Assembly: GCF_003574965.1 (NCBI RefSeq)
Contig: NZ_CP032317.1
Coordinates: 2,666,001 to 2,730,000 of the forward strand
Source: Hymenobacter oligotrophus
GTDB lineage: Bacteria > Bacteroidota > Bacteroidia > Cytophagales > Hymenobacteraceae
DNA length: 64,000 bases
Reading direction: 5' to 3'
The position numbers and the translations under genes are program-made. Below, piece by piece: positions 21,138 to 61,613 of the stretch (the stretch's first letter is position 1; the number at the start of each line of letters is the position of its first letter). The notes below the pieces were generated by a model. The model was not told the DNA's origin. It worked only from the letters and a program-made list of their open reading frames with translations, and searched no databases.

Positions 21138-21745
21138 AGCTCAGAAGGGTAGCGAGTGTTGTGGCGCGGAGTGGTACTCCGCGACGAGCCGCAGGCGAGT
21201 AGCTTGCGTGAGGAGTGCGTGGTCGGCGGCTTCGGCAGACGCGAGGAACGCGCTGGCGCGGGTCGCGGAGTACCACTCCGCGCCACTGGCAAACCCCAAG
21301 AATGCGGTAAGCCGCCCCGGGCCCGACGTACGGGCCACAAGGCGGCTTACCATGTTGTGCGGAGCGGTGCTCCAAGAGGCCGCATGCGCGGCGTGGGTGT
21401 TCGAAGAAGCATCTTCGCCGAAGTACCCTAGGTGCTTTGCTACCTTGGCAGCGGCGGGTTTTCGCAGCTGCTTTTGGAAGTCGGCTTGGCACGCAAGGCT
21501 TTGGCTGTGCAGCGGCTGCGACTCGGCATGTTGTTGCTGTTGTCGCTCGGCTATTTGCTCTTCCACTTCCCGGCGCTCGGCATCGAGGCGCAGGCCCGCG
21601 GCTCGGCTCAGCAGCGCGCTACGGCGCCACATGCTGTCGAACGAGGCCTTGTTAGGCCGGGTTCGCGTGAGCGAAGTGGAGGTATGGGAGAGGCTTCGTT
21701 GCACAGGGTAGCGAAGGAGATACAAAAGAACGACAACCGCCGCCC
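21138..21745. other. 608-bp gap between pyrE and purL with a repeat and no confident gene
   Basis: Contains the inverted-repeat element at 21161-21286 and a partial third arm near 21357-21374 (GCGGAGCGGTGCTCC). The rest, 21380-21745, is open on the minus strand in one frame. Its stretch AAGLRLDAERREVEEQIAER looks like a charged helix, but no family is recognisable and overlapping frames on the plus strand are equally long. I see no promoter of the Bacteroidota type for purL, so whether pur genes are read through from pyrE is open. Confidence 0.5.
21161..21286. repeat. Inverted-repeat element with self-palindromic arms (family B, copy 1)
   Basis: Two identical 25-nt arms in inverted orientation (21161-21185 and 21262-21286), 76 nt apart. 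Each arm contains CGCGGAGTGGTACTCCGCG, itself a palindrome. A similar design with CGCGGACT...AGTCCGCG is found at 35797-35894. Confidence 0.8.
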
Positions 21746-22363
21746 TTACGCAAGCGTCGGCACGACGTCGGGCCGGCTCCCGGGCTTTACTGCCGGCATG
21801 CCTTTGGCACACAGCGGACAATTTTCGGGCTGGTAGGTGGCCGCCTGAACCGGTAGCAACGCAAACAAAGGGAAGTCTAGTTCATGCTGGCCGCCGGTGC
21901 GGTCGATCAGGCAAGCCACACCGAGCACTTCCACGCCCATTTGGCGCAGTACCTCGGCTACCTCCAAGGTCGATTTACCGGTGGTTACCACGTCTTCGGC
22001 GATGATGACTTTCTCGCCGGGCCGCAGCGCGAAGCCGCGGCGCAGCGTCATCCTGGTATCGGCGTCGCGCTCGGTGAAGATGCCGGGCACATTCAGCTGA
22101 CGGGCCAGCTCGTAGCTTACGACCACGCCGCCCATGGCGGGGCCCACTACCACGTCGGGCTGCAGGCCAGCTTCTTGGATCAGCTTAGCCAGTACACCTA
22201 GGGCCGGAGCAGCTAAGTCGGGACGGCGCAAGAAGCGGGCGCACTGCACGTAGGTATCGGAGTGCAGGCCCGACGACAGGCGAAAGTGGCCGCTCAGCAG
22301 GGCATCTTCGCCGCGCAGCTGCTGCTCAAATTGTTGCTGAAAATCGCTCGGAGCGTAGGGCAT
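21746..22363 (-). CDS. pyrE: Orotate phosphoribosyltransferase
   Basis: Joins orotate and PRPP to OMP, the fifth pyrimidine step. The 205-aa protein has the PRPP loop VIIAEDVVTTGKSTLEV, and the N-terminal FRLSSGLHSDTYVQC typical of the family. The C terminus carries an extra CPLC pair followed by a Pro-rich tail, seen in the longer PyrE type. The ATG at 22363 overlaps the end of pyrF by 38 nt, so pyrF and pyrE are tightly coupled. The order pyrD-like, pyrF, pyrE matches pathway neighbours. Confidence 0.94.
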   Translation of the reverse strand: MPYAPSDFQQQFEQQLRGEDALLSGHFRLSSGLHSDTYVQCARFLRRPDLAAPALGVLAKLIQEAGLQPDVVVGPAMGGVVVSYELARQLNVPGIFTERDADTRMTLRRGFALRPGEKVIIAEDVVTTGKSTLEVAEVLRQMGVEVLGVACLIDRTGGQHELDFPLFALLPVQAATYQPENCPLCAKGMPAVKPGSRPDVVPTLA

Positions 22364-23096
22364 TGATTTGTTCGGTAAGGTCGCGGGCCGCGGCGCCAGC
22401 GTCGGCGGCCTGCCAGATGCTACGGGAAGTATTGATCAGAAGACCTAGGCCGTCGGAGGCGCGGCAGCCGGCCTGCACGGTAGCGGCTAAGTCGCCGCCC
22501 TGGGCACCCACGCCGGGCACGAGGAACCACAGCTCGGGGCAACGCTGGCGCAGGCGGGCCAGGGCGTCGGCGTTGGTAGCGCCTACTACCAAGCCTAGGT
22601 CGGGGTGCTGGGGGTAAAGGTCCTGCACCACATCGGCGGCTAGGTCGCTGAGCGTGCCGCCGCGCACCAGCTGCTCATCCTGCAAGGAGTGCGCAGGCTT
22701 GTTGGACGTTTTGGCCAGCACGAACACAGCTTTGCCGGGGCGGGCAAACGGCACAATGGCGTCGTCGCCCATGTAGGGATTCACCGTCACGCCATCGGCC
22801 CCGATGATGTCGTAGGCAAAGGCGGCGTAGCGCTCGGCGGTGTTGGCAATGTCGCCGAACTTCCCGTCGAGGATCATCGGCACCTCCCTAGGTATCCACT
22901 CGCGCAGGCGCTGCAGCAGGGCTACCCCGTCGGGGCGGGCCAGGAAGAATGCCAGGTTGGGCTTGAAGCCGGCGGCGTACTCGGCCGTTTGCTCTACCAC
23001 CTCACGCAAGCGGGTCTCTACGTTCTCGCCTACCGGGTCGAGGCCCACGCAGAGCAGCGAGCCGGTAGTTTGGGCGCGGCGGGTTAGCTGATCCAT
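22326..23096 (-). CDS. pyrF: Orotidine 5'-phosphate decarboxylase
   Basis: Decarboxylates OMP to UMP, the last step of de novo pyrimidine synthesis. The 256-aa protein is of the longer bacterial class (MtOMPDC-like, type 2): LLCVGLDPVGEN, FKPNLAFF, and the catalytic array MILDGKFGDIANTAERYA, which keeps the Asp-x-Lys-x-x-Asp pattern. Later GVTVNPYMGDDAI and FLVPGVGAQGGDL fit the phosphate-binding end. It overlaps the pyrD-like gene by 13 nt and pyrE by 38 nt. Confidence 0.94.
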   Translation of the reverse strand: MDQLTRRAQTTGSLLCVGLDPVGENVETRLREVVEQTAEYAAGFKPNLAFFLARPDGVALLQRLREWIPREVPMILDGKFGDIANTAERYAAFAYDIIGADGVTVNPYMGDDAIVPFARPGKAVFVLAKTSNKPAHSLQDEQLVRGGTLSDLAADVVQDLYPQHPDLGLVVGATNADALARLRQRCPELWFLVPGVGAQGGDLAATVQAGCRASDGLGLLINTSRSIWQAADAGAAARDLTEQINALRSERFSATI

Positions 23097-23950
23097 GCGG
23101 CTTTGTTGGTTTCGGTGAGGTTATGGGCGGTTTCCCATTCGGTGGCGAGGCGTGCCGTGAGGCCGGGCTCCAGCCACTCGCCGGTGGCTACCTGCACGGC
23201 TGCCGCGCCGCAGCGCAGGTAGTCGCGCACGTGCTGAGCCGTGAAGATGCCGCCGGTGCCGATGACGGGCAGCGTCAGGTTTTCGTCGTGAGCCAGCTCG
23301 TACACGCAGCGCAGGGCCATGGGCCGCAGCGCCTCGCCCGAGAGGCCACCCAGGATAGGCTCGCCACCATCGGGCAGGTGCAAGGCTTTTAGGGTGTTGC
23401 AGGCGGCCAGGGCCGTGGCGCCCCCCTCCTGCGCACCTAGGGCCAGGGCGCGCACGTGGTCGGGCCACGGGGGCAGCTTCACGACGAGTGCGGCTTGGTC
23501 GCCGAGTTCGTTGCGCACGGCTTCGGTGGCCTCGCGCACAAAGCGCGGCGTCAGGTCGAAGCCTTTCTGGGTGGTGGCGCTGCTGATGTATATCTCAACT
23601 CCGGCAATTTGGCCGGCGGCTTCGCGGGCCAGAAAGCGGGCAATTTTTCTGAATCCGGGGATGCCGGGAGCGGTGATGCTCACCAGCACGGGTACGCCAT
23701 GGCGGCGCAGGTGCGGCAGGTGGTCTTGTACCAGCTGCTCGGCGCCGTCGGTGCGACGGTCGGTGGTGTTAAGCAGCGACGAATCGGCTACGCGGATGAG
23801 GCCATCGCGCCCGCCGGGCTGTGGCTCCATAATCACCGTTTTGGTGAAAATGGCACCTAGGCGCTCGTAGCCTAGGTTATCGGGCAGTTGCCAGGGAGCA
23901 GCAGCCAGGCACACGGGGTTCTGCAGCGAAAGAGTGGGGCCGAGTTGCAT
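23084..23950 (-). CDS. Dihydroorotate dehydrogenase-like flavoprotein
   Basis: 288-aa TIM-barrel flavoprotein of the DHODH class 1 fold and first gene before pyrF and pyrE. FMN-binding features are present: FTKTV (Lys37), VVKLPP (Lys158), NTLKAL (Asn185), GGLSGEALRP, and IGTGGIFTAQ. However, the catalytic loop that normally reads NxSCPN is EIYISSATTQK at about residues 119-129, without the Cys, Pro or second Asn. The usual N-x-x-GLPN-x-G orotate motif is also absent; the matching region reads LLNTTDRRTDG. It may be a divergent PyrD or a related enzyme on another substrate, so no gene symbol is given. Confidence 0.75.
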   Translation of the reverse strand: MQLGPTLSLQNPVCLAAAPWQLPDNLGYERLGAIFTKTVIMEPQPGGRDGLIRVADSSLLNTTDRRTDGAEQLVQDHLPHLRRHGVPVLVSITAPGIPGFRKIARFLAREAAGQIAGVEIYISSATTQKGFDLTPRFVREATEAVRNELGDQAALVVKLPPWPDHVRALALGAQEGGATALAACNTLKALHLPDGGEPILGGLSGEALRPMALRCVYELAHDENLTLPVIGTGGIFTAQHVRDYLRCGAAAVQVATGEWLEPGLTARLATEWETAHNLTETNKAAWIS

Positions 23951-24246
23951 AGTGGATGGGGCTATTTGTTCGGGCGGTCGGGTGGCGCAAATCGAAGAAC
24001 CTGGTGCACCACAGCGTACTTACCGCGCCGCGCCGGCCGAAGCACCTCTACCGCTTAATGTGGCGGCTTTGGGCTCACCGTTGCTCGGACCGCCAGCCGT
24101 AAAGATGCTTCGGCCGACGCGGCGGGGCTGTGTTGCTGGTTGCGGCTGTTCTCCCCTTTTGCCAGCGCTGCGTGGGGCCGGCCTAGGGAAAACGAAAAGC
24201 AAAGGCAAGCCAACTGTTTTCCCCGGCACCCGGCGCGAGCGGACAC

Positions 24247-24276
24247 AAAAAAACCGCTCCGGTAACAACCGGGCGG
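24247..24276 (-). terminator. Rho-independent terminator of the leader or small RNA
   Basis: On the minus strand a 9-bp GC-rich stem with one bulge and a 4-nt loop (24254-24276) is followed by seven T residues (24253-24247). It is a textbook intrinsic terminator, about 300 nt upstream of the pyrD-like start and 130 nt after a consensus promoter. Confidence 0.85.
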
Positions 24277-24396
24277 CTAACGAGGGAAAAGCAGGAAAAG
24301 GAAACGAAATCAATCAACGGAAACAGGTTTCGACCCCGTTGCAGAACCTGCGGTTGAGCCGTTCCGCGCTTCGTTTTATGTTGATGATTCAGAAGC
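24247..24396 (-). ncRNA. Candidate structured small RNA or attenuated leader upstream of the pyr/pur block
   Basis: A predicted transcript of about 150 nt runs from a consensus promoter (24403-24432) to the terminator at 24247. It can fold into a long three-part hairpin: AAACGAA (24302-24308) with TTCGTTT (24370-24376), TCAAC (24314-24318) with GTTGA (24353-24357), and CAGGTT (24324-24329) with AACCTG (24345-24350). A competing pairing, CAACGG (24315-24320) with CCGTTG (24336-24341), excludes part of it. There is no good open frame. It could be a free small RNA, for example 6S-like, or a regulated leader of the pyr genes. I do not recognise the family. Confidence 0.6.
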
Positions 24397-24402
24397 ACGT
24401 CG

Positions 24403-24432
24403 CAAAAGTATCCAACTTCACCAGAAGGCCAA
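24403..24432 (-). promoter_or_regulatory. Consensus Bacteroidota promoter
   Basis: On the minus strand TTG (24432-24430), exactly 19 nt, then TACTTTTG (24410-24403), a full match to TTG-N19-TAnnTTTG. Transcription would start near 24396 and run into the candidate small RNA and then toward the pyrD-like gene. Confidence 0.75.
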
Positions 24433-24825
24433 CACCGCACCCCGATATAGTTGCTGTTAAGAAAATGTTAAGCTCAACAAGTGCTTATATTACTAAGGTA
24501 TTCCTTTAGTAGCGCAGCTATTCATAATAACTAATTGAATTGCAACACGCTTTCCCCAATACTCAACCTTATTCCACCCGTTAAGGCGCATACCACTCAT
24601 TGTATTTTTTAACTTTTCTCAGAATAACTTTATTGCAAAAGTAAAAATCAGCCTTGTTGAAAAAATGCAAAACCATTTATACATTTACTGAAAGTTTAGG
24701 GCATTTGGCTGAATTGAGGAGTTGAGGGTTCATGTTTTGATAACGCTGGCTTAACCTCGTCGGCGCCCCGCTTACCGGAACTTTGCACATCACATTTCCA
24801 AGTTTGTTACATCACCTCCCGCGCT
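24433..24825. other. AT-rich intergenic region upstream of the DUF4468-like gene
   Basis: Stretch of much lower GC than its surroundings, between the minus-strand promoter at 24403-24432 and the ATG at 24826. It holds no open frame of note. A weak -7-like GAACTTTG lies at about 24779-24786, roughly 40 nt before the start of the next gene; no TTG at the right distance was found. Confidence 0.5.
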
Positions 24826-25401
24826 ATGAAATCACCGTTACTACTGCTCAGTTTAGTGCTTGCGCTGCTCGCCGGCACGCCGGCCCTGGCGCAGTCGGAT
24901 GCGCCCGTTGAATACAGCGAGCGGGTGCCGGCCGGCTCCTACGGCCGCTCTACGCTGCACGCCCGCACCCAGGAGTGGGTGGAGCGCCGCTTTGCTTACG
25001 GCCCCAAAACCGATTTCTCTACCAACCCCGCCGCCGGCACCGTGCGCGTGCTGGGCACCGTAAAGCTTAAGCCCGTCGATAACAAAGGCCAGGAGGTTGA
25101 GCGCACCGCCCGCTTCGAGTTTACGTGCCAGGCCACCGACGAAGGCTACACCTACAGCGTGGGCGCGTTTCGGGTAATTACAGACCCGCAAAAACTCGAT
25201 ACGACGGTGCCGCTGGATGACTACCTGGCCCAGCTGCGCGCCGAAAAAAACAACGACCGCACCAAGAACGACCGCCGCGTACGGGCCCAGGCCAACTCGC
25301 TGGCCAGCGAAATTGCCATGAGCTTCCGCTCGTACATGAACCAGATTCCGGCGAGCGAAGACGGCAGCGTGGGCTTGCCCGCCGCCACCGGAAGCAACTA
25401 A
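24826..25401 (+). CDS. Exported protein, DUF4468-like
   Basis: 191-aa protein with a signal peptide (LLLLSLVLALLAGTPALAQ). The mature part starts with YSERVPAGSYGRSTLHARTQ, then a short beta-rich core (VRVLGTVKLKPVDNKGQ, ARFEFTCQATDEGYTYSV) like DUF4468 proteins, which have a TBP-like fold and unknown function. Its C-terminal half is charged and helical. Probably periplasmic. It is monocistronic, with an intrinsic terminator 30 nt after the stop. Confidence 0.65.
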   Translation: MKSPLLLLSLVLALLAGTPALAQSDAPVEYSERVPAGSYGRSTLHARTQEWVERRFAYGPKTDFSTNPAAGTVRVLGTVKLKPVDNKGQEVERTARFEFTCQATDEGYTYSVGAFRVITDPQKLDTTVPLDDYLAQLRAEKNNDRTKNDRRVRAQANSLASEIAMSFRSYMNQIPASEDGSVGLPAATGSN

Positions 25402-61473: not shown

Positions 61474-61613
61474 AACTGAAGCCGACCGAAACCGCTGCTA
61501 TTCTCCTGCACGCAGCTTTTTGGCCTTTGGCTCAGTGGAGACCAGAACCCACTCAAAACAACGGGGCGCTCCGAAAAGCCTTACGAGTAGGACCCGCACT
61601 ACCCGCACTACGC

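Follow-up and report, generated by a model that had tools for sequence, protein, structure and literature searches.

The locus described here lies on the minus strand of a 64 kb stretch of DNA (the window) and consists of a leader of about 150 nt, enclosed between a promoter and a strong terminator and followed by the pyrimidine genes pyrD, pyrF and pyrE. Its features, in the direction of reading, are as follows.

24403..24432, minus strand: promoter of the Bacteroidota sigma-A type, with TTG at 24432-24430, N19 and TACTTTTG at 24410-24403
24396..24398, minus strand: candidate (leaderless) start codon GTG of a leader peptide, at the predicted +1
24183..24398, minus strand: putative leader reading frame VLLNHQHKTKRGTAQPQVLQRGRNLFPLIDFVSFSCFSLVSRPVVTGAVFLCPLAPG..., open through the terminator and depleted of stops across copies
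24368..24396, minus strand: hairpin H1, arms 24396-24392 (GCTTC) and 24372-24368 (GAAGC), in RNA GCUUC/GAAGC
24341..24367, minus strand: hairpin H2, arms 24367-24361 (GCGGAAC) and 24347-24341 (GTTCTGC), with modest covariation
24323..24339, minus strand: hairpin H3, ACGGG-gtcgaaa-CCTGT, replaced in the sister group by GACC-GGAA-GGTC
24277..24321, minus strand: U-rich, A-poor tract, proposed as a UTP-sensitive pause region from base composition and T-run position
24247..24276, minus strand: intrinsic terminator (attenuator), stem 24276-24254 (CCGCCCGGTTGTTACCGGAGCGG) and seven T at 24253-24247
23084..23950, minus strand: pyrD (dihydroorotate dehydrogenase), the first gene under control
22326..23096, minus strand: pyrF (orotidine-5'-phosphate decarboxylase), TIGR02127 over cut-off
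21746..22363, minus strand: pyrE (orotate phosphoribosyltransferase), TIGR01367 over cut-off

A pattern search for TTG-N18..20-TAnnTTTG across both strands of the window returned this promoter as its single match, which confirms the full promoter proposed in an earlier note on this DNA, and the strong terminator with seven T residues described there was likewise found in place. The same note had put pyrD about 300 nt further on with no second good promoter; the distance from the T-run to the pyrD start is 296 nt, and TAnnTTTG is absent within it. The leader of the window folds with a z-score of -2.19 relative to its shuffles, 4 of 200 being equally good. It should be added that a second TACTTTTG occurs at 24636-24643, on the 5' side of the main -7 box at a distance of some 230 nt; it lacks a -33 TTG at 18-20 nt and could be an additional upstream promoter. 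Between attenuator and pyrD lies an inverted repeat (24023-24127; 33-nt arms, 85% complementary, 39-nt spacer), which is single-copy in its own genome. A divergent gene with a DUF4468-like domain (24826-25401, plus strand) adjoins the leader and is also found beside it in loci of the sister group.

Searching at the DNA level, we found one match in each of seven congeners (7/7), with 82-90% identity over promoter, leader and terminator; the flanks could not be aligned, and the leader is therefore conserved beyond chance. The covariance search across relatives that the earlier note had proposed was made with a model built from 12 sequences; it detected the leader in the window's group (g1; 8/8 genomes) and in a sister group (g5; 119/120), and reached no more than marginal scores in five genomes of other genera. 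Most genomes of both groups carry two copies. The second copy of the window's own genome (G000:C1:1172976-1173152) precedes pyrB-pyrC, and this copy type generally stands directly upstream of pyrB, with pyrC following. Its DNA pattern occurred at 46 loci in a collection of 84,980 species, and since 45 of these bear the name Hymenobacter, we took both g1 and g5 to be Hymenobacter.

Among the 115 homologous copies examined, 68 precede pyrD, 46 precede pyrB and one could not be assigned. On the pyrD side, the next gene is either pyrD itself or a gene resembling asparaginyl-tRNA synthetase (AsnRS-like), often decayed or present as remains, which is interposed between leader and pyrD. All 115 copies possess the TAnnTTTG box, with the -33 TTG at 18-20 nt from it in 72, and the terminator is conserved in both copy types, A and B. 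No TAnnTTTG was seen between terminator and pyrB in the 43 pyrB copies searched, nor in the first 250 nt 3' of the terminator in 69 pyrD-side copies, and pyr transcripts must therefore pass the terminator. Because the copies precede pyrD or pyrB and are followed by no alternative TAnnTTTG, the element is almost certainly a common leader-attenuator, acting in cis, of both pyrimidine operons, pyrD-pyrF-pyrE and pyrB-pyrC. In the open-access literature searched, a description of such a leader in Hymenobacter was not found.

The distribution of the leader is complementary to that of the regulator PyrR: a PyrR query gave a strong match in 74/76 genomes of the family outside g1 and g5 (the two exceptions being 78% and 87% complete) and no match in 128/128 genomes of the two leader-bearing groups. 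The own genome contains six matches to the phosphoribosyltransferase (PRTase) domain, none of which corresponds to the PyrR query. In other Cytophagales the neighbour of pyrB is usually pyrR, its identity being confirmed by NCBIfam. The leaders thus appear to stand in for PyrR in Hymenobacter, and a regulator swap is caught here, with PyrR retained in the other genera of the family and gone from the leader-bearing group. Taken with the homologous leader before pyrB-pyrC, its loss strongly supports the nucleotide-responsive attenuator of pyr genes that the earlier note had offered as one of two options. The extension of this control to pur genes, also raised there, finds no backing, as both copy types lack a link with pur genes and purL starts 609 nt past pyrE. 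That note had overlooked that pyrB has a leader copy too, that the leader probably contains a reading frame, and that PyrR is lost where the leader is present. It should also be mentioned that another inverted repeat (21161-21286; 34-nt arms, 88%) is situated between pyrE and purL.

At the RNA level, the three-segment hairpin originally proposed stands in part: three local hairpins, H1-H3, hold across orthologues, while the exact set of pairings suggested is only partly conserved. H2 (consensus GCRGRAC/GUYCUGC) is 98.7% paired in 32 pyrD-type copies, with 1/300 shuffles as good and 4 double changes against 0.8; in the same copies H3 is 95.3% paired, with 4/300 shuffles as good. Paired bases are accordingly conserved in relatives, with modest covariation in H2 and H3, while H1 and the terminator are almost invariant and the 177-nt copies vary too little for covariation. 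The GACC-GGAA-GGTC form of H3 is common to both copy types outside the window's group, in which pairing is retained with other bases and another loop, and the operon context is the same. The competing pairing envisaged before, between the 3' strand of H1 and the U-rich stretch, is also part of the minimum-energy fold predicted for some orthologues; a conserved antiterminator was not found. A pseudoknot between loop 1 and GUUGAUU was promising in a few sequences and was rejected on 32, where pairing was 78.6% as compared with 76.8% in shuffles. Hairpins H1-H3 may function as pause hairpins, in control of translation at the start, or as an aptamer.

No Rfam family fits the leader, in line with the earlier statement that no named riboswitch has these sequences, and the PyrR-binding RNA element had no Rfam match in the leader or among the leader matches. 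Permissive thresholds yielded a chance match on an unrelated inverted repeat and sub-threshold matches to ylbH, and both were discarded. An identity as SRP RNA was dismissed too, that RNA being located elsewhere in the genome. The 6S-Flavo model matched nowhere in the genome, a weak result since its control also matched nowhere. Elsewhere in the window, a DUF805 RNA (RF03081) at 61530-61597 on the plus strand scored over the gathering threshold.

The leader probably encodes a short peptide of non-conserved sequence. Positions 5-7 of the copies read RTG in 115/115 cases (86 GTG, 29 ATG), and, as measurements in Flavobacterium (PMC9723704) place the -7 box at -12 to -5, the predicted +1 falls on the R of this codon. 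Downstream, a pair of K-R codons follows in frame at 24 or 27 nt in 103/114 copies; in the remaining 11, all of one clade, RTG is out of frame and an in-frame ATG precedes K-R, so that this clade must use the second ATG. The RTG frame runs past the T-run in 100/115 copies and the K-R frame is open to the T-run in 107/110. Counting open frames proved weak as coding evidence, since frame +1 is open too in 95/110 copies, and it was replaced by a test in which each alignment column was resampled independently 300 times. In the RTG frame the 177-nt copies have 0 stops where 7.0 are expected, and the 156-nt copies have 2 where 10.7 are expected, both below every one of the 300 resamplings; column resampling breaks relatedness, and the fair control is given by frames +1 and +2, which were without depletion. 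The RTG at +1, the in-frame spacing to K-R and the avoidance of stops in this one frame together point to translation of the leader, and a leaderless start at RTG is probable, even though Bacteroidota have few leaderless mRNAs (3.7-5.5%; PMC7366714, PMC9723704), which counts against it. A synonymous-rate test on the frame detected no excess of synonymous change; the sequence of the peptide, if translated, therefore seems not to be under selection, and the case for coding is weakened as well. In some copies, one-base differences in length (lengths 155 and 176) put the frame out of register close to the terminator.

The composition of the leader is distinctly biased in the stretch from H3 to the terminator, where all copies together have 50% T and 4.5% A; over the first 80 nt, T makes up 17%. 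The distance from the start of its longest T-run to the T-run of the terminator is 45 nt in 34/46 pyrB copies and in 29/68 pyrD-side copies. For E. coli pyrL (b4246) the corresponding distance, from the start of a T5 run to the T8 run of the attenuator, is 47 nt.

Our best reading of this arrangement, to which we assign a probability of roughly 0.6, is a ribosome-coupled attenuation that senses UTP in the manner of E. coli pyrBI. Transcription would begin at or beside the RTG codon, and a short peptide would be read from it or from the second in-frame ATG some 24-27 nt on, while the polymerase traverses the U-rich, A-poor tract and then meets the intrinsic terminator inside the reading frame. 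With plentiful UTP the polymerase would outrun the ribosome, the hairpin would form and transcription would stop; with scarce UTP it would pause in the U tract and allow the ribosome to catch up, the hairpin would not form and the pyr genes would be transcribed. For E. coli, pausing at low UTP is established background, attributed to Roland, Liu and Turnbough (1988).

The E. coli control is known to proceed by translation coupled to transcription of pyrL (PMC5021804, PMC4824070). Both systems lie upstream of pyrB and place the terminator inside a short frame that ends beyond it, the pyrL frame being of 44 codons and running past the terminator. Hymenobacter differs in that each of two operons has its own copy, hairpins ahead of the U tract are conserved and the start codon is at the predicted +1; it moreover belongs to a different phylum. 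We propose a likeness in the way of working and do not claim membership in the E. coli system by descent, and pyrBI-like attenuation has apparently evolved separately in Hymenobacter. Bacillus-type PyrR attenuation also relies on a leader terminator that attenuates pyr operons, and the other genera of the family do carry PyrR beside pyrB, but the leader-bearing groups lack this protein in all 128 genomes and the Rfam PyrR element is unmatched. Within Bacteroidota, leader-peptide attenuators have been suggested for operons of Flavobacterium psychrophilum (PMC9723704), in which a leader peptide likewise controls transcription elongation; these are, however, amino-acid operons and not pyrimidine ones.

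The principal rival to a pyrBI-like mechanism is a metabolite riboswitch, in which the terminator would act as expression platform for an aptamer, formed by H1-H3, that binds a pyrimidine compound (UTP, UMP, uridine or an intermediate of the pathway). The conserved local hairpins with their modest covariation, the GACC-GGAA-GGTC hairpin shared by both copy types outside the window's group and some folds in which the downstream stretch takes part in alternative pairs all agree with it; yet H3 is wholly different in sequence and loop in the window's group under the same operon context, neither a conserved antiterminator nor the suspected pseudoknot emerged, and a pure aptamer leaves the avoidance of stops in one frame unexplained, so that we regard it as unlikely. 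Even less probable is a protein other than PyrR that binds the leader and chooses between termination and read-through: H1 and H3 are conserved in sequence beyond the needs of pairing, and the family's other genera have kept PyrR next to pyrB, but there is no candidate protein, PyrR itself is absent and its binding element has no Rfam match here.

Very improbable, in turn, is the other option of the earlier note, a free small RNA, here one that acts independently in trans and lies upstream of pyr genes by chance. The element does have its own promoter and terminator, and it survives in Hymenobacter where the adjoining AsnRS-like gene is decayed or gone; against this, 114/115 copies of two paralogous sets precede pyrB or pyrD and no other promoter is seen for those genes, and a free small RNA is not needed.

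The conservation of H1-H3 counts against a pure pyrBI mechanism, which does not need those hairpins. The element may tentatively be seen as a new class that joins a structured, possibly ligand-binding leader to a leaderless, ribosome-coupled frame and senses pyrimidine, although we consider this rather doubtful. Were it true, PyrR would have given way to the leader in the lineage at the root of Hymenobacter, and duplication would have carried the leader to both pyr operons. If correct, the pyrBI-like reading would add to E. coli a second case in which pyrimidine genes are attenuated through coupling to translation; this case would apparently be independent, and it comes from a phylum where the coupling of transcription and translation is little studied. 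It opens the question of whether ribosomes of Bacteroidota follow RNA polymerase closely enough to block a terminator, for which an element with no Rfam family and two copies per genome constitutes a clean test system.

Finally, the AsnRS-like gene between leader and pyrD (for instance L009:1752-2786 and L054:963-2000), remnants of which lie 3' of the leader in many genomes, has a tRNA-synt_2 domain; against asparagine synthetase A models it stays under their cut-off. Loci L009 and L010 had suggested that the element is the leader of this gene, an assignment abandoned because the leader persists where the gene is decayed and occurs before pyrB as well. The gene is intact mainly where aspartate carbamoyltransferase (ATCase) is missing and decayed in most pyrB-bearing genomes; over 14 genomes tested, it was intact in 8/9 ATCase-free ones and truncated in the ninth. 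Nine near-complete genomes of the Hymenobacter group (G016, G020, G024, G028, G106, G114, G118, G120 and G170) have a single gene with a carbamoyltransferase domain, which falls in a weaker-scoring class than PyrB and is probably of the ornithine type. All nine retain the leader and pyrD; the organisms may be auxotrophic for pyrimidines or may make use of an unknown route.
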